Positions 4,557 through 20,002 of a stretch of DNA of 51,939 nucleotides are shown one piece after another. The notes under the pieces were generated by a model. It made no database searches. It saw nothing but the letters and a program-made list of their open reading frames with translations, and was not told the DNA's origin. The position numbers and the translations under genes are program-made. Where the stretch lies: assembly GCA_020725555.1 (NCBI GenBank), contig DYEU01000011.1, forward strand, positions 1 through 51,939, read 5' to 3'. The DNA comes from Desulfatibacillum sp. (GTDB lineage: Bacteria; Desulfobacterota; Desulfobacteria; Desulfobacterales; SpSt-501). How positions within the stretch are numbered: position 1 is the stretch's first letter; each line of letters begins with the position of its first letter.

Positions 4557-5677
4557 GGGCCCGATTCCTCCAGGAGTTCCCGGAACGCCTCGAGCCGGGT
4601 GCGCAGCGACTCGAGCGGCAGCGACTCACAGTCCATCTCCATCGTGAGGGCGGGGATCCCCGCGGCGGCCAGGCCGGCCCCGATGGCGGGCCGCTCGAAG
4701 GCGTCCGGCTCGCAGCAGCGCACGGGGAGAAGGAGCACGCCCCCCGCCCCGGCCTCCCGGACGAGGCGGGGAAAGACCGCCGCCCGGTCGGTGCCGGGGA
4801 CGTGGAGGCAACAGCAGGGGGTGCCGCCGAAGATCGCCGCCTCGAGGCTGCCCGCGGGGTCCTGCGGGTCGAACACCGGCCGGGAGATCATGCGGCCGCC
4901 GTTTGCGAAATCGTCGTCGGCCGGGTCGAGCCCGAGGTGCTCGAGCAGCCCGAGGACCTCGTCGGGCGGGACGACCATGCCGCTCAGAAAGAGCCGCGGC
5001 CGGCGCCCGGCCGGGGGCTCGGGGGCGGCTTCGAGGCGGGAGAGGAGATCCGCGAGCCGCCCGCGGTACTCCTCGGGCTCCATGAAGAAGCCCGCCCGGA
5101 GTGCGGCGTAGAAATTCCGCACGCCGATCAGCCCCGGCCGGCTGCGGCGGAGGGAATAGAGCCGGCGCTGGAGATTCCGGATTTCGCCGTAGAGGCGTGA
5201 GGCGGAGGCAAGCGAGGCCCCGGTGGCCGCACTTCCCGTGAGCCGGCCGAGATCCTCGAACGCGGCCGGGATCAGCTCCGCGAGGCGGCGGCGTCGGGCG
5301 AAGGGGTCGGTTGCGAGCGGGATCGGAAAGACGAGGGTCGGCCGGGAGGAAAGTCGCCGGAAGATCTCGCGCAGGTTGACCAGGGTGTCGCAAAGCGAGG
5401 TGAAGACCCAGCCCGCGAGCTCCGCGGTCCGGCCGGCGAGCTCCATCTCGAGGATCGAGCGGGCGACCGGGCAGCAGTAGGGCGGAAGCAGGGCATCGGC
5501 CCGGGCGACGGGAAGCGCCGCCCCCCAGAAGGCGACGGGAAGCCCCCCGGCGGCGTGGACCCACTCCGGCGGGAAATAGGCCGGGGCGACCCCGATCAAC
5601 GGCCGGCCGCTTCGGCGCCGCAGCAGGGAAAGCCGGCCGGGCGGATCCGCCAGGGCTTCGTGGAAGGGGGCGAACAT
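4553..5677 (-). CDS. 2-hydroxyacyl-CoA dehydratase family subunit, partner of the following gene
   Basis: Second member of the HgdB/BcrC-like superfamily, about 374 residues from the preferred start. The opening GRPLIGVAPAYFPPEWVHAAGGLPV is the family's first strand-loop. Cysteines suited to a [4Fe-4S] or double-cubane cluster occur in PPYCCPVAR, FTSLCDTL, GTPCCCLH and LPVRCCEPD, and the end EMDCESLPLESLRTRLEAF matches the usual C-terminal tRieaF signature. The open frame begins at a TTG at 5770, but those bases form an AAGGAGG motif and would add a Gly/Arg/Pro tail. ATG at 5677 (or GTG at 5707) fits family length better. It sits between the thiolase and the other subunit, so the substrate is probably an acyl-CoA of the same pathway. 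Confidence 0.8.
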   Translation of the reverse strand: MFAPFHEALADPPGRLSLLRRRSGRPLIGVAPAYFPPEWVHAAGGLPVAFWGAALPVARADALLPPYCCPVARSILEMELAGRTAELAGWVFTSLCDTLVNLREIFRRLSSRPTLVFPIPLATDPFARRRRLAELIPAAFEDLGRLTGSAATGASLASASRLYGEIRNLQRRLYSLRRSRPGLIGVRNFYAALRAGFFMEPEEYRGRLADLLSRLEAAPEPPAGRRPRLFLSGMVVPPDEVLGLLEHLGLDPADDDFANGGRMISRPVFDPQDPAGSLEAAIFGGTPCCCLHVPGTDRAAVFPRLVREAGAGGVLLLPVRCCEPDAFERPAIGAGLAAAGIPALTMEMDCESLPLESLRTRLEAFRELLEESGP

Positions 5678-13146: not shown

Positions 13147-13731
13147 TTGCGCATCGGCGTGCTTGCGCTTCAGGGAGGGGTGCCCGAGCATCTCGGGCAT
13201 CTCGAGCGGCTGGGGATCGAGGGCCGCCGCGTGCGCCGCGCCGCGGAGCTCGAGGGCCTGGAGGGGCTCATCCTCCCGGGCGGGGAGAGCACGGCGATCG
13301 GCTCGCTGCTCGCCGCCGACGGGATGGTCGCCGCGCTGCGCGATTTTTCCGCCCGCCGCGCCGTCTGGGGAACCTGCGCCGGCATGATCCTCATGGCCCG
13401 GGAGGTCTCGGGCGGCCGGCCCGTGCTCTCGCTCATGGACATCGCCGTGGAGAGAAACGCCTTCGGCCGCCAGCTCGATAGCTTCGAGGAGCCCCTGGCC
13501 GTCGACGCCTTGCGGGGCGACGGCGGGCAGCCCTTTCCGGGCGTCTTCATCCGGGCCCCCCGGATCGCCCGCGCCGGGCCCTCCGCCCGGGTCCTCGCCA
13601 AGCTCGCCGACGGCACCGCGGTCGCGGCGCGGGAGGGCCGCCTGCTCGCCACGGCCTTTCACCCCGAGCTCACCGGCGACCTGCGCTTCCACGCCTACTT
13701 CGCGGACCTGGCCCGGGGGGAGAGCCCCTGA
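13147..13731 (+). CDS. pdxT: Pyridoxal 5'-phosphate synthase, glutaminase subunit PdxT
   Basis: 194-residue class I glutaminase that hydrolyses glutamine and channels ammonia to PdxS. The signature elements are MRIGVLALQGG, the LPGGESTAIG oxyanion loop, nucleophile Cys77 (WGTCAGM) and the His172/Glu174 pair in FHPELTGD. The start codon is TTG at 13147 with an upstream AGGAGGGAG. The 3' end overlaps the convergent tyrA-like gene by 62 bases. Confidence 0.96.
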   Translation: MRIGVLALQGGVPEHLGHLERLGIEGRRVRRAAELEGLEGLILPGGESTAIGSLLAADGMVAALRDFSARRAVWGTCAGMILMAREVSGGRPVLSLMDIAVERNAFGRQLDSFEEPLAVDALRGDGGQPFPGVFIRAPRIARAGPSARVLAKLADGTAVAAREGRLLATAFHPELTGDLRFHAYFADLARGESP

Positions 13732-14458
13732 GGTCGCCCTCGACCCGGCGCAGCGCCGCGGCGAAGGCCCGCCGCATCTTCGCCGCATGGGGATTGAAGC
13801 GCTGCAGGTCCAGCGAGAGCCCGGGGTCGTCTCGGCGCACGCTGGCCGCGATGCGCACAAGCCGTCTCCAGTTCAGCGTGTCGAGGGACAGGGGCCCGAA
13901 GCCCGCCCGGGCGAGCGCCCGGCCGAGCAGGTGCGGCAGGGCGAGCGAGCAGGCCGTCTGCCGGTCGTGCTCGGCGGGGTCGGCCGGGATCACGGCGAGC
14001 CCCAGGCCCTGCAGGAAGGCGGTCACGGAGGCCAGGCGGCGGCGGGAGATCCGCTCCGGGCAAAGGACGATCTTGCGCCCCGCAAGCCCGCGGGCCGCGC
14101 TGTCCGGCCCGAAGAGGGGATGCGTCCCCAAAAGGTCGACCCCGGCGGGCAGGTGCTTTCGCATCCAGCGGAGCGGGATCTCCTTCACCGCGCAGACGTC
14201 GGCCGCGAGGGCCCCGCCGCGAAAGTGCGGCGCAGCCGCCTGCAGCGCCTCCTCGAGGGCGGAGACCGGGACGGCGAAGACGACGACGGGACAGGAAGCC
14301 GCCCGGGCGAGGTCGGCGGGCACGGCCCCGCAGGCCGCGATGCGCGACGGCGGGGCGGCCGGGTCCCAGGCCCGGATGGCGGCCCGCGGGGAGAGGTGCC
14401 GCGCCAGGAAGGCGCCGAAGCGGCCGACGCCGATCAGGCCGATGGGGCCGCAGCGCAC
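13670..14458 (-). CDS. Prephenate dehydrogenase (TyrA-like)
   Basis: 262-residue NAD(P)-dependent dehydrogenase of tyrosine synthesis. The Rossmann motif is PIGLIGVGRFGAFLAR; ADVCAVKEIP and LLGTHPLFGPDSA match prephenate dehydrogenase landmarks (the GTHPmFGP motif with the substrate-binding His). No ACT or chorismate mutase domain is attached; the mutase is fused to AroE two genes upstream. The start is GTG at 14458 with GAGGAG upstream, overlapping the end of aroA by 25 bases. It is the last gene of the attenuator-controlled aromatic operon and overlaps pdxT tail to tail by 62 bases, so the final 20 residues are Arg/Pro-rich and probably unimportant. Confidence 0.9.
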   Translation of the reverse strand: MRCGPIGLIGVGRFGAFLARHLSPRAAIRAWDPAAPPSRIAACGAVPADLARAASCPVVVFAVPVSALEEALQAAAPHFRGGALAADVCAVKEIPLRWMRKHLPAGVDLLGTHPLFGPDSAARGLAGRKIVLCPERISRRRLASVTAFLQGLGLAVIPADPAEHDRQTACSLALPHLLGRALARAGFGPLSLDTLNWRRLVRIAASVRRDDPGLSLDLQRFNPHAAKMRRAFAAALRRVEGDLRGSPPGPGPRSRRGSAGRR

Positions 14459-15714
14459 CCGTAGAGCTCCTCGAAAACCCCCCAGAAGCCGGGGAAGGAC
14501 TTGGCGACGCAGGCCTCGTCGAGGATGCGCACCCCGGGGGTCCCCAGCCCGGCCACGGCGAAGCTCATGGCGATCCGGTGGTCGTCGTGGCAATCGATCG
14601 CGGCCCCCCGCGGCCGGCCGCCGGTGACCCGGAGCTCGGATCCCTCCACACGCGCCCGGATCCCCATGCGCGAAAGTCCCTCGCACACGGCGGCGAGGCG
14701 GTCGCTTTCCTTGTCCCGCAGGTGCCCCACGTTGCGGATCCGGCTCTCCCCGCGGGCATAGGCGGCGACGACGGCAAGCGTCGGCACGGCGTCGGGCAGA
14801 TCGCCGAGGTCCGCATCCACCGCGTGCAGCTCCCCCCCGGTGACCCGCACCCCGCCCTCCCCGTCCTCGACCCGGCAGCCCATGGCGGCGAGGAGGTCGA
14901 GCAGGCGGACATCGCCCTGGAGCGAGTCCCGCCGGGTGCCGCGCACGGTCACGGCCGACCCGGTGACCGCCGCGGCCGCCCAAAAATAGCCCGCCTGCGA
15001 GCAATCGGCCTCCACCGCGAAGCGGCAGGCGCGGTAGCGGCCGCCGCCTTCGACCCGGAAGCGCTCCCAGCCCTTCCGTTCCACCGCGACCCCGAAGCGC
15101 TTGAGAACGTCGACGGTGATGTCGAGGTAGGGCCGCGAGACCGGCCCGCGGGCGACCTCGATCTCGATGCCCCGCTCGCTGTAAGGCGCCGCCAGCAGGA
15201 GGGCGGAGAGGAACTGACTGCTGCGCGAGCAGTCGAGCCGGACGCGCCCCCCGGGGAGGCGTCCGCCGCACACGCGGACGGGGGGGCAGCCGTTTCCGCG
15301 CAGGCACTCGGCCGCCACGCCGAGCGCGGCCAGGGCGGACACCAACTCCCCCACGGGCCGCGCCTCGAGCCGCGGCGAGCCGACGAGCAGGCTCTCCCCC
15401 GCCACGAGGGCGGCCACGGCGGTGAGAAGCCGCATGGAGGTCCCGGAGTTTCCGAGACGGACGGGGCCGGCGGCGGGGACGAGCCGGCCGGCCGTTCCCG
15501 CGACGGCCCAGGATGGCCCCCGGGCCGTGAAGCGGGCGCCCCAGCCGCAAAGCGCCTCCCGGGTTAACCGCGTATCCTCGCTCCAAAGTGCGCCCTCGAT
15601 CTCCGATGAGCCCTCGGCCAGGGCCGCGGCGATGAACGCGCGGTGGGTGTAGCTTTTCGATCCCGGCACCGAAAGCGCAACCCGCATCGGGCTAAGAGGC
15701 CGGATTTCCTTCAT
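14434..15714 (-). CDS. aroA: 3-phosphoshikimate 1-carboxyvinyltransferase (EPSP synthase)
   Basis: 426-residue EPSP synthase joining shikimate 3-phosphate and PEP. VPGSKSYTHRAFIAAALA is the substrate-binding N-terminal motif, LGNSGTSMRLLT the PEP-site Gly loop, and RLEARPVGELV the second PEP motif. The LGNSGT loop differs from LGNAGTAMRP of the typical class I enzymes, so it is closer to the class II or divergent type. DSLQGDVRLL, RNVGHLRDKESDRL and DCHDDHRIAMSFA complete the fold. ATG at 15714 follows AGGAAAGGA. It lies 49 bases after the chorismate mutase-AroE fusion. Confidence 0.95.
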   Translation of the reverse strand: MKEIRPLSPMRVALSVPGSKSYTHRAFIAAALAEGSSEIEGALWSEDTRLTREALCGWGARFTARGPSWAVAGTAGRLVPAAGPVRLGNSGTSMRLLTAVAALVAGESLLVGSPRLEARPVGELVSALAALGVAAECLRGNGCPPVRVCGGRLPGGRVRLDCSRSSQFLSALLLAAPYSERGIEIEVARGPVSRPYLDITVDVLKRFGVAVERKGWERFRVEGGGRYRACRFAVEADCSQAGYFWAAAAVTGSAVTVRGTRRDSLQGDVRLLDLLAAMGCRVEDGEGGVRVTGGELHAVDADLGDLPDAVPTLAVVAAYARGESRIRNVGHLRDKESDRLAAVCEGLSRMGIRARVEGSELRVTGGRPRGAAIDCHDDHRIAMSFAVAGLGTPGVRILDEACVAKSFPGFWGVFEELYGCAAAPSA

Positions 15715-15763: not shown

Positions 15764-16924
15764 TCATCCGCGGGCGGTTAGCTCGGTTTCGACCGCAAGG
15801 CGCATGATGTCGAGCGGGGCCTCGAGGCCGGTCCAGAGTTCGAATTGCCGGGCCCCCTGGTAGAGGAACATCGAAAGCCCGTCCACGGTCTGGCATCCTG
15901 CGGCCTCGGCCTCGGCCAGAAGCCGCGTCTTGAGCGGCGTGTAGACGATGTCCATCACCACAAGCCCCGGCCGGAGACGCTCCGCCGGGAGCGGGGTTTC
16001 CGCGGTGCGGGGGCTCATGCCGACGGGGGTGGCCTGGACGAGAATCTCGCAGTCCGCAGGGTCGAATTCCTCGAGCGGCCGGAAGTCGGCCCCCAGCGCG
16101 ACGGCGAGGGCTTCGCCCTTGTCGCGCGTGCGGTTGTAGACGGTGACCCGGGCCCCTGCGTGCCTTGCGCCGAAGACGGCGGCCCGCGCGGCCCCGCCGG
16201 CGCCGAGCACGGCGACCCGCCGGCCGGCGAGGGCGACCCGCTCGCCGAGGGCCCGCACGATCCCCTCCCAATCGGTGTTGAACCCCTTGAGCTCGCCGGC
16301 GTCGTTCACGACGGTGTTCACGGCCCCGATGCGCCGCGCCCGGGGGTCGATGAAGTCGAGGCAGGCGAGCACGGCTTCCTTGTGGGGGATCGTGATGCTC
16401 GCCCCGCGGAAGCCGAGCGCCCGCACCCCGGCCATGGCGGGCCGGATGTCTTTCGCCCGGATCGCGGCGTACATCCCGGGATAGCCGGTCGCGGCGAAGG
16501 CGGCGTTGTGCATGACCGGGCTCAGGCTGTGCACCACGGGGTTTCCGAACACGGCGAAGAGCGCCGGGGTGCCGAAGCCGTCGGCCGGGTGCGCGCCGTC
16601 GGACTGGACCTCGCGCGCGGCGGCCATCAGGGCGGCGAAGACCCGGACGAGGTGGCGGTCGGCGAGGAGGCGTCCGCGGTTCAACTCGGCCAGACGCCGG
16701 AAGATCTCCGCCTCGCGCCGCATGTCGCGCACGGGGAGCCCAAGCCGCCGTTTCACCGCCCCCACGGCGCGTGCCCGCTCCAGCCGCTCGTTGAAAAGCC
16801 GCAGGATCTCGCCGTCCAGCCGGTCGATCTCCGCGCGGAGCTCGGCCAGGCGTCGCTCGTCGGCCCGGCGCTCCGCCTCCCCCTCGCCGGCGGGAGGACT
16901 TCCCCTTTTCACGGATGTTCCCAC
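15764..16924 (-). CDS. Chorismate mutase (AroQ)-shikimate dehydrogenase (AroE) fusion
   Basis: 386-residue fusion. Residues about 22-108 form an all-helical AroQ chorismate mutase (LRAEIDRLDGEILRLFNERL; Arg30, Arg50, Lys58 and Arg69/70 fall where the active-site residues are expected). Residues about 118-386 are shikimate dehydrogenase: FGNPVVHSLSPVMHN with the substrate serines, catalytic Lys182 in ITIPHKEA, GFNTDWEG with Asp218, NADP loop LGAGGAARA and NRTRDK. It therefore catalyses two non-consecutive shikimate/tyrosine steps. The start is GTG at 16924 after GGGAGGAAGG. It overlaps aroB by 16 bases. Confidence 0.92.
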   Translation of the reverse strand: MGTSVKRGSPPAGEGEAERRADERRLAELRAEIDRLDGEILRLFNERLERARAVGAVKRRLGLPVRDMRREAEIFRRLAELNRGRLLADRHLVRVFAALMAAAREVQSDGAHPADGFGTPALFAVFGNPVVHSLSPVMHNAAFAATGYPGMYAAIRAKDIRPAMAGVRALGFRGASITIPHKEAVLACLDFIDPRARRIGAVNTVVNDAGELKGFNTDWEGIVRALGERVALAGRRVAVLGAGGAARAAVFGARHAGARVTVYNRTRDKGEALAVALGADFRPLEEFDPADCEILVQATPVGMSPRTAETPLPAERLRPGLVVMDIVYTPLKTRLLAEAEAAGCQTVDGLSMFLYQGARQFELWTGLEAPLDIMRLAVETELTARG

Positions 16925-18006
16925 GCCTTCCTCCCCTCCGCCGATCGCACCCAGGCCGAAAAAAGCGCCTCCAGGTCGTCCAGCTCGAGCTCCACGGCGA
17001 CCCCCCGCCCGATGCGCTCGAGGAAAATGAAGGCGATCCGGCTCCCGGAACGCTTCTTGTCCTTGCGCAGGCCCGCAAAGAGCGAGGCGGCGTCGGCCTC
17101 CGTCCGCCGCGGAAGCCCCAGGGCGTCGAGGAGGCGGAAGACCCGCTCGGCCTCCGGCCGCGGCAGGAGCCCCCGCTCGACCGAGAGCCCGGCGGCGATC
17201 GCCATGCCGACGCTCACCGCCTCGCCGTGGGAGAGGCCGGTCGCTTTCTCGATGGCGTGGCCGAAGCTGTGCCCGAAGTTGAGCAGGCGGCGCTCGCCCG
17301 CCTCGCGCTCGTCGCGCTCGACGATCGCGGCCTTGACGGCGATCGAGTCCCGCACCAGGCGCCGCGTCACCCCGGGCTCCAGGGCGGATGCGGCCGCGGC
17401 GTTTTCCTCGAGAAAGGTGAAGAGCGCGGGGTCGGCGATGAGCGCGTGCTTCACCACCTCGGCCAGCCCGTTGTTGCGTTCCCGGGGCGGCAGGGTCTCG
17501 AGGAGCCCGAGGTCGCAGAGCACGAATTCCGGCTGGCGGATGGTGCCGACGAGGTTCTTGAAGCCGCGGAGGTTGACCCCGTTTTTCCCGCCGATCGCGG
17601 CATCGACCTGGGCAAGCAGCGTCGTGGGCACGAAACCGACCGGCAGGCCTCGCAGGTAGGTCGCGGCGACGAAGCCCGTGACGTCGCAGACGACGCCGCC
17701 GCCCACGCCCACGAGAAAGGTCCCGCGGTCCGCCTCCAGCCGCAGGAGCTCCTCGTAGAGGCGCTCGGCATTGGCGAGCGTCTTCGCCTGCTCGCCTTCC
17801 CCCACGACCACGACCGGCCCGGCCGGGAGGCGGCCGCCATGGAGCCGGAGCACGGTCTCGTCGGCGAGCACGATCCGCGGCGCACCCCCGGTGAGCTCGT
17901 CCAGCTCCTCGATGCGGCCCCCCACGCGCAGGCGGCAGGCGCGGCCTGAACCGCGCAGGATCCTCTCCTCCGGGCCTGCCGGCTTGGCGTCCACTCTGGT
18001 GCTCAT
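16909..18006 (-). CDS. aroB: 3-dehydroquinate synthase
   Basis: 365-residue AroB converting DAHP to 3-dehydroquinate with NAD and a divalent metal. Motifs visible are GEGEQAKTLANAERLYEEL, the NAD loop GVGGGVVCDVTGFVAATYLRG, PTTLLAQVDAAIGGKNGVN, the metal ligands in LNFGHSFGHAIE and HGEAVSVGM. ATG at 18006 overlaps the aroF stop by four bases (ATGA); the longer open frame upstream runs through the aroF coding region and is not used. Confidence 0.96.
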   Translation of the reverse strand: MSTRVDAKPAGPEERILRGSGRACRLRVGGRIEELDELTGGAPRIVLADETVLRLHGGRLPAGPVVVVGEGEQAKTLANAERLYEELLRLEADRGTFLVGVGGGVVCDVTGFVAATYLRGLPVGFVPTTLLAQVDAAIGGKNGVNLRGFKNLVGTIRQPEFVLCDLGLLETLPPRERNNGLAEVVKHALIADPALFTFLEENAAAASALEPGVTRRLVRDSIAVKAAIVERDEREAGERRLLNFGHSFGHAIEKATGLSHGEAVSVGMAIAAGLSVERGLLPRPEAERVFRLLDALGLPRRTEADAASLFAGLRKDKKRSGSRIAFIFLERIGRGVAVELELDDLEALFSAWVRSAEGRKAWEHP

Positions 18007-19088
18007 GCGGCGGACCCCCCCCCGGCCGCGAGGCGCCGCGGCCCGGCCGCGAGTTCTTCGGCGGCCTCGAGCACCACCCGCTCCGTCGTCTCCCAGGAGA
18101 TGCACTCGTCGGTGATCGACACCCCGTAGGCGAGTCCTTCGGGCTTTCCCCGGAACGGCTGGTTTCCCTCGCGGAGGTGGCTTTCGAGCATGAGCCCGAC
18201 CAGGCTCCCGGTCCCGGCGAGCCGCTGTTCGATCACGCTTTTCCAGGCGATCTCCTGCCCCTGGTGCTTTTTCCAGCTGTTGCCGTGGCTGCAGTCGACG
18301 AGCAAGGTCTCGGGCAGGCCGTGGGCGATCAGGCTCAGCCGCGCCTCGGCGATGCTCAGCGGATCGTAGTTCGGCCTGCGGCCGCCGCGCAGGACCAGGT
18401 GGCAGGCGGGGTTTCCTTTCGTCCGCACGACGGCCGTGTAGCCTTCGGGGTCGACGCCGAGGAAGCTCTGGGGGGTGCGCGCGGCGATGAGCGCATGGAT
18501 CGCGGGCAGGATGTTCCCGTCGGTTCCGTTCTTGATGCCGACGGGCATCGAAAGCCCGCTCGCCAGCGCCCGGTGGGCCGGGCTCTCGGCCGTTCGCGCG
18601 CCGATCGCCCCCCAGCTCACGAGATCGGCGAGGTACTGCGGGGTCACCATCTCGACCATCTCGGTCCCCGCCGGAAGGCCCATCTCCTGAATCCGCAGCA
18701 AAAGCAGCCGGGCGCGCCGCAGCCCCTCGTTCAGGTCGCAGCTGCCGTCGAGGCGGGGGTCGTTGATGAAGCCCTTCCAGCCGACCGTGGTGCGCGGTTT
18801 CTCGAAGTAGACGCGCATCACGACCAGGAAGACCTCCGCGACGCGCTGCTGGAGCCCGCGGAGCCGCTCGGCGTACTCGAGCGCGCTTTGCTCCTCGTGG
18901 ATCGAGCAGGGGCCGACGACGAGCAGAAGCCGCGGGTCGCGGCGCTCGAGGACCCGCTGGATCGCCCGGCGGGATTCGACGACCGTCCGGCCGGCCTGGG
19001 CCGAAACCGGGATGTCCTCCTTCATCCGCCGCGGCGAGACCAGCCTCCCGTAACCCGCGACCCGGAGATCATCGGTGAATGTAGGCAT
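18003..19088 (-). CDS. 3-deoxy-7-phosphoheptulonate synthase (class I, AroFGH type)
   Basis: 361-residue DAHP synthase, the committed step from PEP and erythrose 4-phosphate. It is the E. coli-type (I-alpha) enzyme: LLVVGPCSIHEEQSALEYAE, RVYFEKPRTTVGWKGFINDP, PVGIKNGTDGN, LVLRGGRRPNYD, DCSHGNSWKKH and SLVGLMLESHL are all present. The allosteric specificity (Phe, Tyr or Trp) cannot be read reliably. ATG at 19088 follows AAGGAGG. It is the first structural gene after the attenuator, so leader read-through sets expression of all five aromatic genes. Confidence 0.96.
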   Translation of the reverse strand: MPTFTDDLRVAGYGRLVSPRRMKEDIPVSAQAGRTVVESRRAIQRVLERRDPRLLLVVGPCSIHEEQSALEYAERLRGLQQRVAEVFLVVMRVYFEKPRTTVGWKGFINDPRLDGSCDLNEGLRRARLLLLRIQEMGLPAGTEMVEMVTPQYLADLVSWGAIGARTAESPAHRALASGLSMPVGIKNGTDGNILPAIHALIAARTPQSFLGVDPEGYTAVVRTKGNPACHLVLRGGRRPNYDPLSIAEARLSLIAHGLPETLLVDCSHGNSWKKHQGQEIAWKSVIEQRLAGTGSLVGLMLESHLREGNQPFRGKPEGLAYGVSITDECISWETTERVVLEAAEELAAGPRRLAAGGGSAA

Positions 19089-19144
19089 GGCGGCCCTCCT
19101 TTTCGGAAACCGCCGGGGGTGGAAACCGCCTGCGGCTCCCCCCC

Positions 19145-19180
19145 AAAAAAAACCGCGGGCGGCTTTTTTCCGCCCGCGGT
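19145..19180 (-). terminator. Intrinsic terminator of the aromatic-operon attenuator
   Basis: On the minus strand a perfect 11-bp stem is formed by ACCGCGGGCGG (19180-19170) and CCGCCCGCGGT (19162-19152) with a 7-base loop, followed by a run of eight T (19152-19145). It lies 30 bases after the leader peptide stop codon and 56 bases before the aroF ATG. Its 5' arm can instead pair with an identical copy of the 3' arm inside the leader gene (19228-19218). Confidence 0.95.
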
Positions 19181-19228
19181 CTGAGATTCTTCGTTTGGTG
19201 GGTTAGGGGATCAGCGCACCGCGGGCGG
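19170..19228 (-). promoter_or_regulatory. Antiterminator pairing segments of the attenuator
   Basis: Segment A, CCGCCCGCGGT (19228-19218, within the last leader codons), is exactly complementary over 11 bases to segment B, ACCGCGGGCGG (19180-19170). B is also the 5' arm of the terminator, so the A:B and B:C structures are mutually exclusive. The last of the paired Tyr codons ends at 19244, 15 bases before segment A. A ribosome stalled there would leave A free to form the antiterminator, whereas one reaching the stop at 19211 would cover A and allow termination. Confidence 0.85.
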
Positions 19229-19288
19229 ACCGGCCTTGCGGCGATAATAAAAGAACGTGCTCCAAAAGCCCCGGGGCGCCCGCTTCAT
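19211..19288 (-). CDS. Aromatic amino acid leader peptide (attenuator control peptide)
   Basis: A 25-codon reading frame, too short for routine gene calling. It starts with ATG at 19288 after an AGGAG motif and stops with TGA at 19211-19213. Its middle reads GFWSTFFYYRRK: Phe, Trp, Phe-Phe and Tyr-Tyr codons in a nine-residue span, then basic residues and a Gly-Pro-Pro-Ala-Val-Arg end. That composition is exactly what is expected for a control peptide whose translation measures charged tRNA-Phe, tRNA-Tyr and tRNA-Trp. The last codons contain the antiterminator strand. It precedes a perfect terminator and the aroF-aroB-aroE-aroA-tyrA operon. The role is inferred from the geometry, which is very specific. 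Confidence 0.88.
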   Translation of the reverse strand: MKRAPRGFWSTFFYYRRKAGPPAVR

Positions 19289-19317
19289 CGCCTTTTCTCT
19301 CCTAAGCTTGAGGCTCC

Positions 19318-19346
19318 TTTTCCCCCGTCTGCGGCCCGCTTGTCAA
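19318..19346 (-). promoter_or_regulatory. Possible promoter of the aromatic operon leader
   Basis: A perfect -35 TTGACA lies on the minus strand at 19346-19341, overlapping the 3' end of the HAD gene. The -10 window 17 bases on (GGAAAA, 19323-19318) is poor. A start near 19311 would give a leader of about 23 bases before the control peptide ATG, which suits an attenuator. Transcription could also enter from pgk and the HAD gene. Confidence 0.4.
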
Positions 19347-20002
19347 GCCTTTTTGCGCTCCCCGAGAAGAAGCCCCGCGATGCCCGCGAGGTCGGGGAGG
19401 ACGGCGACGGCGCCGGCCGCGCGCAGCTCCCCGGCGCTCGAGAAGCCGGTGAGCACGCCGTAGCCGCAAACCCCCGCCGCACGGGCCATGGCCATGTCCT
19501 CGACCGCGTCCCCGACGAAGGCCGCACGTTCCGGCCCGGCCCCCAGGCGCGCAAGAAGCGCCTGCAGCGCCTCCGGCGAGGGCTTGGGGCGTGGGGCCTC
19601 CCCGAAAAAGAGGCTCGCCGCGAAAAGCCGCGCGAGCGCCGGGGGGAAAAAGGCCTCGAAGAGCTCGCGGAAGGTGTTGGAAACGAGCCCCAGGCGGAAA
19701 CGCCGCGCAAGGGCCCCGAGAACCTCCCGGGTGTCGGGGAACAGGCGGACCCCGCCCGCGGCGAGCTCGCGGTAGATCCGGCGCCGGCGCCGGAGGATCT
19801 CCTCCCACCGGCTCTCCGTGACCTCCTCGCCGAGCAGCGCCCGCCGCTTGGCCGAGGGCGGAAGCGACACGCAGCGGGCGATCTCCTCGCGGGCGACCGG
19901 GAAGCCCGCCTCGCGCAAGGCCTCGCGGTAGGAATCGACCACCAGCGGGAGATCGTCCACGAGGGTGCCGTCATAGTCGAACACGACGACCTCGAGCCGC
20001 AC
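19343..20002 (-). CDS. HAD-superfamily phosphatase (phosphoglycolate phosphatase-like)
   Basis: 219-residue HAD hydrolase. Motif I is VVFDYDGTLVDD with the nucleophilic and acid Asp, motif II the Ser in GLVSNTF, motif III the Lys in RPKPSPEAL, and motif IV FVGDAVEDMAMARAAG. The helical cap between residues 17 and 85 places it with the Gph/PGP group. The start is GTG at 20002, six bases after the pgk stop, so the pair is likely co-transcribed; removal of 2-phosphoglycolate or a related phosphate would fit but is not proven. Confidence 0.85.
   Translation of the reverse strand: MRLEVVVFDYDGTLVDDLPLVVDSYREALREAGFPVAREEIARCVSLPPSAKRRALLGEEVTESRWEEILRRRRRIYRELAAGGVRLFPDTREVLGALARRFRLGLVSNTFRELFEAFFPPALARLFAASLFFGEAPRPKPSPEALQALLARLGAGPERAAFVGDAVEDMAMARAAGVCGYGVLTGFSSAGELRAAGAVAVLPDLAGIAGLLLGERKKA

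Follow-up and report, generated by a model that had tools for sequence, protein, structure and literature searches.

The trp attenuator of Escherichia coli is built of four RNA segments and a leader open reading frame (ORF) that carries control codons; a ribosome stalled on these codons frees segment 2, while the intrinsic terminator is formed by segments 3 and 4 (3:4). The attenuators of the trp, his, leu, thr, ilv and pheA operons are classical and are listed in PMC1183508. In the case of Corynebacterium glutamicum, the available excerpts of PMC4046766 and PMC11802643 describe the aroR-aroF system, in which an aromatic leader (Phe-Tyr-Phe) attenuates the DAHP synthase operon and answers Phe limitation, not Tyr availability. 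According to the excerpted text of PMC5343134, gammaproteobacteria conserve the regulators TyrR and TrpR, which the other classes analysed there lack.

The window considered here, i.e., the whole stretch of 51,939 nucleotides of Desulfatibacillum sp. DNA that was analysed (contig DYEU01000011.1, assembly GCA_020725555.1), carries a candidate element of this kind ahead of an operon for aromatic amino acid synthesis. A first-pass annotation had proposed leader-peptide attenuation of this aro operon, and the proposal is supported by the parts of the element, by their conservation and by covariation in two sets of leaders. These observations, together with the association of the leader with pathway-entry genes, make it very probable that the element is a transcription attenuator of the trp/phe type, operated by a translating ribosome; translation of the leader, ribosome stalling and a response to amino acid supply are what we infer from them.

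Organization of the leader and its operon

The ORF, the terminator and the copy of the terminator 3′ arm are real and lie where they had been placed on the minus strand, to which all features given below belong. A -35-like box, TTGACA, can be read at 19341-19346, where it overlaps the stop codon of the upstream gene, a HAD hydrolase by Pfam; TTGACA was also found by eye 5′ of the leader in relatives, and no good -10 was seen when the window sequence was read by eye. Downstream lie AGGAG (19299-19303), the probable ribosome-binding site of the leader, and the leader peptide gene itself, 25 codons at 19211-19288 (MKRAPRGFWSTFFYYRRKAGPPAVR, then stop), which was identified from the sequence and from a family of similar leaders. 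Codons 1-13 read ATG AAG CGG GCG CCC CGG GGC TTT TGG AGC ACG TTC TTT, and codons 14 to stop read TAT TAT CGC CGC AAG GCC GGT CCG CCC GCG GTG CGC TGA. From this list, the control codons are Phe8, Trp9 and Phe12-Phe13-Tyr14-Tyr15 (19244-19267), of which the family conserves Phe and Tyr, not Trp.

Segment 1, the putative protector GCGGGCG (19277-19283), is absent from the first-pass annotation and was assigned from the fold of the untranslated RNA, from duplex pairing and from family evidence; its partner is CGCCCGC at 19227-19221, and in the GC-rich window copy taken alone, this complementarity could be due to chance. Segment 2, CCGCCCGCGGT (19218-19228), lies in the last leader codons and forms the 5′ half of the antiterminator, an assignment based on covariation and on its being an exact copy of the terminator 3′ arm; between it and the end of the last Tyr codon (19244) are 15 bases, as had been noted. 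Segment 3 (19170-19180), read from the sequence, is the 5′ arm of the terminator and is common to antiterminator and terminator, while segment 4 (19145-19162), read from the sequence and from covariation, comprises the terminator 3′ arm (19162-19152) and a run of eight T (19152-19145). The 11-mer CCGCCCGCGGT has four matches in the window on both strands, with 0.37 expected and 1 of 100 shuffles reaching four; one of these matches, located at 5057, has no relation to the leader. When the 107-nt leader was shuffled by mononucleotides, 34 of 200,000 shuffles contained the exact 11-mer.

The operon behind the leader begins with a gene for a type I DAHP synthase (DAHPS; aroF/aroG-like, 18003-19088, Pfam PF00793, DAHP_synth_1), followed by genes for 3-dehydroquinate synthase (aroB, 16909-18003 with an approximate start, PF01761 and PF24621), a chorismate mutase (CM)/shikimate dehydrogenase fusion (CM/aroE, 15764-16924, CM_2 and Shikimate_dh_N), EPSP synthase (aroA, 14434-15714, PF00275) and prephenate dehydrogenase (tyrA, 13670-14470 with an approximate start, PDH_N). 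A second terminator-like hairpin, located between the first one and the operon, was seen in L004, L005, L006, L010, L013 and L022 and is not evident in the window.

A leader family at DAHP synthase genes

When 58 relatives were searched for DAHP synthase, 19 genomes showed it, at 21 places in all, and at E<=1e-90 DAHPS was found in 90 of the 291 genomes of the order. The upstream regions of 102 DAHPS genes were examined (L001-L022, L025, L102-L120 and the 60 regions L121-L180, a few listed places being left out). An ORF with at least five aromatic residues in eight is present in 85 of them and missing from 17; these leaders often end with GLPGVR before the stop, as in MVSKFSGGFYFYFWYFYFGTGLPGMR and MQTSWGRYYFYFWYYFNTGLPGVR, and a terminator-like hairpin stands behind the ORF in 84 of the 85. 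The exception, L175, was rejected as a leader, being a chance ORF at a diverged DAHPS copy, without a terminator-like hairpin. None of 12 diverged copies (L020, L021, L166, L168 and L173-L180) has the leader, nor are they matched by R1, the RNA model introduced below.

A comparison of upstream regions in related genomes, which the first-pass annotation had recommended, recovered the leader at 84 of 90 first-copy DAHPS genes, whereas the other six (L017, L102, L109, L127, L130 and L136) showed neither the ORF nor an RNA-model match in the stretch examined. The leader family is widespread in its order (Desulfobacterota, Desulfobacterales-like). Within the genus of the window, three of seven genomes (G001, G003 and G006) gave no match to this DAHPS and none to the leader; in G003, prephenate dehydratase (PDT) lies in an open frame of 732 codons and is perhaps part of a fusion enzyme.

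For alignment, L120 was excluded because its leader is identical to that of L011, as were L134, L016, L145 and L105, which have an odd ORF, a weak score or a doubtful automatic terminator; of the remaining 79 leaders, 66 were kept at no more than 85% mutual identity. L134, L016, L105 and L145 were later matched by the RNA model (E 5e-9 to 8e-17) and are family members missing from the 66.

Amino acids probably sensed by the leader

Residues were counted over codons -24 to -5, numbered back from the stop. The 66 DAHPS leaders contain Phe in 64, Tyr in 66 and Trp in 25 cases, and 43 leaders from a second set, found upstream of ADH synthase (ADHS) genes, contain them in 43, 43 and 25 cases, respectively; pooled, Phe occurs in 107 and Tyr in all of the 109 leaders. 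The combined Phe, Tyr and Trp sensing proposed at first is thus backed by near-universal Phe and Tyr codons, while its Trp component is weak, with Trp in 50 of 109 leaders and a separate Trp-only leader at trpE of the same genome.

This trpE leader (L281, G000:C27) reads MERNGLSVSGSPCRWWWRAR, ending CRWWWRAR before the stop, and has a strong terminator. A PDT gene of this genome, the start of which resembles DAHPS (L282, G000:C3; PDT by family), lies behind the leader (V/M)IGRFLGFWRFGIVHPGF and its stop codon; at its end, GRFLGFWRFGIVHPGF and stop, this Phe-rich leader shows 11-base complementarity to a segment further downstream, as judged by eye. Similar leaders in relatives have the form GRFFF..SVHPV. 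The trpE sample comprised the locus of the window genome and, from 68 genomes in the order, the 30 loci with the best scores; 23 of the 31 showed a leader with a terminator, with residue totals of 73 Trp, 20 Phe and 19 Tyr; at least two Trp are present in 22 of these 23, and L294 has none. For PDT, loci were chosen whose frames span 629-673 codons, which are fusions by length; eight such loci stood among the 30 best from 68 genomes, and that of the window genome was added. Six of the nine have a leader (36 Phe, one Tyr, no Trp), the window genome's own being missed by the automatic rule. The control codons therefore follow the downstream product (Phe/Tyr at the pathway entry, Trp at trpE, Phe at PDT), as attenuation predicts.

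One may still ask whether the element is a true sensor of three amino acids, in which shortage of Phe, Tyr or Trp would each open the operon. The window leader does have one Trp codon, 50 of the 109 leaders carry at least one, and mixed-codon leaders exist at ilvGMEDA. Such a sensor nevertheless seems rather unlikely, given that 59 of the 109 leaders lack Trp and that trpE of the same genome is served by Trp codons of its own. In the DAHPS leaders, the 37 NGG codons found between positions -14 and -12, comprising 19 Trp, 13 Arg and five Gly, also argue against it, as if NGG, which can pair in an inner hairpin, mattered there rather than Trp. We therefore prefer to regard the mixed leader as a sensor of Phe and Tyr, to which Trp may make a minor contribution.

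Pairing of the four RNA segments

The first-pass annotation had described only three RNA segments, a count that is not supported: segment 2 has a pairing partner, the protector, on the 5′ side of the control codons, which makes four segments, as in trp. Relatives carry a segment of the GGCAG type ahead of the control codons and its complement, CTGCC, in the final codons, and both change together; co-varying examples are GGGCGG/CCGCCC in L008 and CAGACAG/CTGTCTG in L115. These pairings were assessed by a partner-swap test, which compares the partner belonging to a leader with partners taken from other leaders and so separates true partners from conserved motifs. In the 66 DAHPS leaders, the test gave z -12.0 for 1:2, -7.7 for 2:3 and -15.3 for 3:4, with none of 5000 permutations reaching the observed mean; since the test alone does not remove shared ancestry, non-partner controls serve as the guard, and these gave -2.0 for 2:4 (weak, not quite null), -0.3 for 1:3 and +0.4 for 1:4.

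The ADHS set started from 63 loci, of which 61 have a leader and terminator and 43 are non-redundant; none of the 43 was used for R1. In these, z was -5.9, -6.4 and -10.1 for 1:2, 2:3 and 3:4, and -0.3, 0.6 and -1.1 for the non-partner controls, a replication on other data rather than evolutionary independence, as the ADHS leaders are relatives of the DAHPS set. On the MAFFT alignment A2, where cells count sequences and not events, 79.4% of cells are paired for 1:2, 83.7% for 2:3 and 94.3% for 3:4, with 26, 42 and 48 double-change cells against shuffled means of 8.8, 10.2 and 15.2, respectively; pairing falls to 29-47% when the partner is slid by 1-3 columns. The antiterminator and terminator helices proposed at the outset are thus backed by covariation, which is repeated in the ADHS leaders.

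A possible inner hairpin formed by the control codons themselves (for instance GGTAC..GTACC) was also examined: 46 of 66 leaders fold better than the median of their synonymous shuffles (mean z -0.77), and the partner-swap z values were -3.3 and -2.7. It is a moderate, non-universal feature and not a required part. An inner stem TGCGC:GCGCA beside the stop codon was seen in some relatives, by eye only.

The fold check that had been suggested was run on the window and showed that the stretch folds no better than its shuffles (z -1.07, with 30 of 200 shuffles at least as stable). Folding alone being unremarkable, the weight of the evidence is comparative. The features of a trp-type attenuator found here are a leader ORF with a ribosome-binding site, control codons for the end product, a 3:4 terminator and an exclusive 2:3 antiterminator. 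The 1:2 protector is found for the family; in the window, it is predicted in the full fold, where 19283-19277 pairs with 19227-19221, and is absent from the fold of the shorter transcript.

It is from this shorter transcript that an attenuator of three segments, with no working protector and an untranslated leader that would default to read-through, draws its support: the untranslated window RNA in which segment 3 is made and segment 4 not yet is predicted to form 2:3 and not 1:2, and the exact arm copy of the window needs no further segment. The 1:2 complementarity is, however, partner-specific in both the 66 DAHPS and the 43 ADHS leaders, and we regard a three-segment design as improbable compared with the four segments of trp.

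Proposed mechanism of attenuation

In the proposed four-segment mechanism, a ribosome would translate the 25-codon peptide as RNA polymerase transcribes the leader. With charged Phe and Tyr tRNAs plentiful, the ribosome would reach the stop codon and cover segment 2, so that 3:4 would pair and transcription would stop before the DAHPS gene. With these charged tRNAs in short supply, the ribosome would stall at FFYY (and at F8/W9) and segment 1 would be kept off segment 2; in this stalled state, 2:3 would form as segment 3 emerges, no terminator would arise, and DAHPS-aroB-CM/aroE-aroA-tyrA would be transcribed. Calculated with about 15 nt covered 5′ of the P site, the geometry is such that a ribosome at the stop codon covers 19228-19218, and a stall at Tyr14-15 frees it. 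An untranslated leader would be expected to form 1:2 and hence to terminate, a step that is weakened for the window copy by the 2:3 pairing predicted in its shorter untranslated transcript. In the full stalled stretch of the window, the predicted minimum is still the terminator, so antitermination would have to be kinetic. Kinetic antitermination is assumed for trp as well.

A different use of the leader peptide would be an arrest-peptide sensor similar to TnaC, in which the conserved C-terminal GLP(G/A)VR would stall the ribosome on a free amino acid. The C-terminal residues are indeed conserved, yet their codons encode segment 2, the pairing of which can explain the conservation, and the leaders L133, L137, L141 and L143 end differently, with RGAPV.., which makes such a sensor very unlikely. 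An ordinary terminator of the upstream HAD gene accompanied by a chance ORF, as its position after that gene and the GC-rich sequence might suggest, is contradicted by the fact that many families of the order conserve the leader ORF together with its control codons and its pairing, and is scarcely conceivable. For a large group of anaerobes, ribosome-mediated attenuation would offer a testable account of how aromatic synthesis may be controlled, with leader codons that match the genes behind them.

One leader family and two entry cassettes

The covariance model R1 was built from the 66 DAHPS leaders alone and searched in all 291 genomes. The gene behind its best match is not DAHPS but ADH synthase (2-amino-3,7-dideoxy-D-threo-hept-6-ulosonate synthase); the ADHS of L183 is a TIGR01949 equivalog (373 bits, cut-off 299), with 3-dehydroquinate (DHQ) synthase II behind it. 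Among the 150 best R1 places listed (E up to 2.6e-14), 74 stand before ADHS, 66 before DAHPS and ten before neither of the listed ADHS and DAHPS genes; the 140 are located 28-328 nt upstream of one of the two entry genes. In the group of ten, L246, L247, L267 and L269 precede chorismate mutase-prephenate dehydratase (CM-PDT; by Pfam for L247 and by sequence for the rest), L270 precedes an aroE-like gene and L266 another ADHS (both by sequence), and L265, L271 and L272 are close to a contig end. The last, L268 (G187:C1:2452844-2452981), has a full leader, MADRLSGSYFVYWYYYFTGLPEVR, and a terminator, but in the 2.8 kb that follow no aromatic gene could be recognized.

At E<=0.01, R1 matches in 248 of the 291 genomes of the order and in 219 of 395 of the phylum; both are upper figures, since matches with weak E include bare terminators, and the conclusions rest on the 150 listed places. 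L260, L262, L264 and L273 (R1 E 4.8e-5 to 1.3e-3) were rejected as leaders on this account, being bare terminators with no aromatic leader.

ADHS was found at E<=1e-40 in 159 of the 291 genomes, in nine of them only at 1e-47 to 1e-55, and three genomes (G089, G204 and G235) have both DAHPS and ADHS at E<=1e-90. Both entry types occur under the leader within a single family in f23 (G028 versus G089 and G125) and in f34 (G039 versus G191). By Pfam, the genes behind the leader at L277 are those for ADHS, DHQ synthase II and CM-PDT, then aroE, aroA, aroK, aroC and tyrA; at 37 DAHPS loci, the next gene is aroB in 30 and CM-PDT or CM/aroE in five, with nothing found in two. These gene orders indicate that the first two genes differ, whereas the leader and the later operon genes are common to both. 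Judged from the sequences, one leader family serves two non-homologous entry cassettes, DAHPS with aroB and ADHS with DHQ synthase II. The ADHS route is the archaeal one of Methanocaldococcus.

On balance, it appears probable that an ancestral Phe/Tyr attenuator was kept across the order while the entry enzymes were exchanged, be it in place or through transferred operons, the conserved part being the RNA and not these enzymes, and that it forms an attenuation-based aromatic regulon with its Trp-only and Phe-only sisters. That the leader stays while the entry enzymes change would be its most interesting property, a case in which a regulatory RNA seems to outlast the enzymes it controls and in which non-homologous replacement of the pathway entry can be tested by comparison.

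Related leaders elsewhere

Several other leader-like elements were observed. At L256 and L258, a second ADH synthase is followed by chorismate mutase/prephenate dehydratase, with a Phe-rich leader-like ORF at L256 and a doubtful one at L258. In other parts of the phylum, aroK-aroC is preceded by similar aromatic leaders at L222 (by NCBIfam), L228 and L232 (both by sequence). Tyr/Phe-rich leaders such as MQVYYYYYYYYTKGRNLPAY precede a gene of the ADP-forming acyl-CoA ligase type at L229 and L237, possibly, as a guess, for aryl-acid assimilation. An aromatic leader-like ORF with a terminator precedes a gene with a GNAT acetyltransferase domain at L255 (G038:C175:85-225). In distant phyla, aromatic leader-like ORFs stand before DAHP synthase in Burkholderia sp. 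LMG 13014 (L097, ending MSAKFYFYFFWYLRPLADREG) and in a Chloroflexi MAG (L079).

Comparison with known attenuation systems

A search of open-licence literature brought up no paper on attenuation of aromatic genes in Desulfobacterota, by which absence from print is not claimed, and the accessible portions of PMC4162548, PMC2965389 and PMC1262725 hold nothing on this leader family. The first-pass annotation had likewise known of no attenuator of this design for a DAHPS operon in this lineage; the function has a precedent in another phylum, in C. glutamicum, as described in the excerpts cited above.

The four-segment design is common to the present leader and the E. coli trp attenuator (Rfam RF00513). 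In contrast to trp, the control codons here specify Phe and Tyr and are placed between segments 1 and 2, where many leaders may form an additional small hairpin (moderate support). No match to the Rfam Trp, Phe and His leaders or the T-box at gathering score was obtained for the window and ten relatives: a tRNA was the sole match in the whole window, and E-value scans of 19050-19400 and of the ten relatives gave only matches below gathering scores. The E. coli pheA (pheL) and pheST attenuators, which are named in the available text of PMC11802643, have a Phe leader and follow the same logic, yet the leader described here differs in its genes, in its mixed Phe/Tyr codons and in acting at the pathway entry instead of the Phe branch. 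Several amino acids are covered by one leader at ilvGMEDA too, but these are branched-chain; that attenuator is named in the accessible part of PMC1183508. The C. glutamicum aroR leader, likened to the window leader from its description in the excerpts, is alike in function but belongs to another phylum and has only Phe-Tyr-Phe. The mechanism is therefore that of the textbook, while the leader family is apparently new, and its value lies in the family itself, in its breadth and in the exchange of enzymes behind it.
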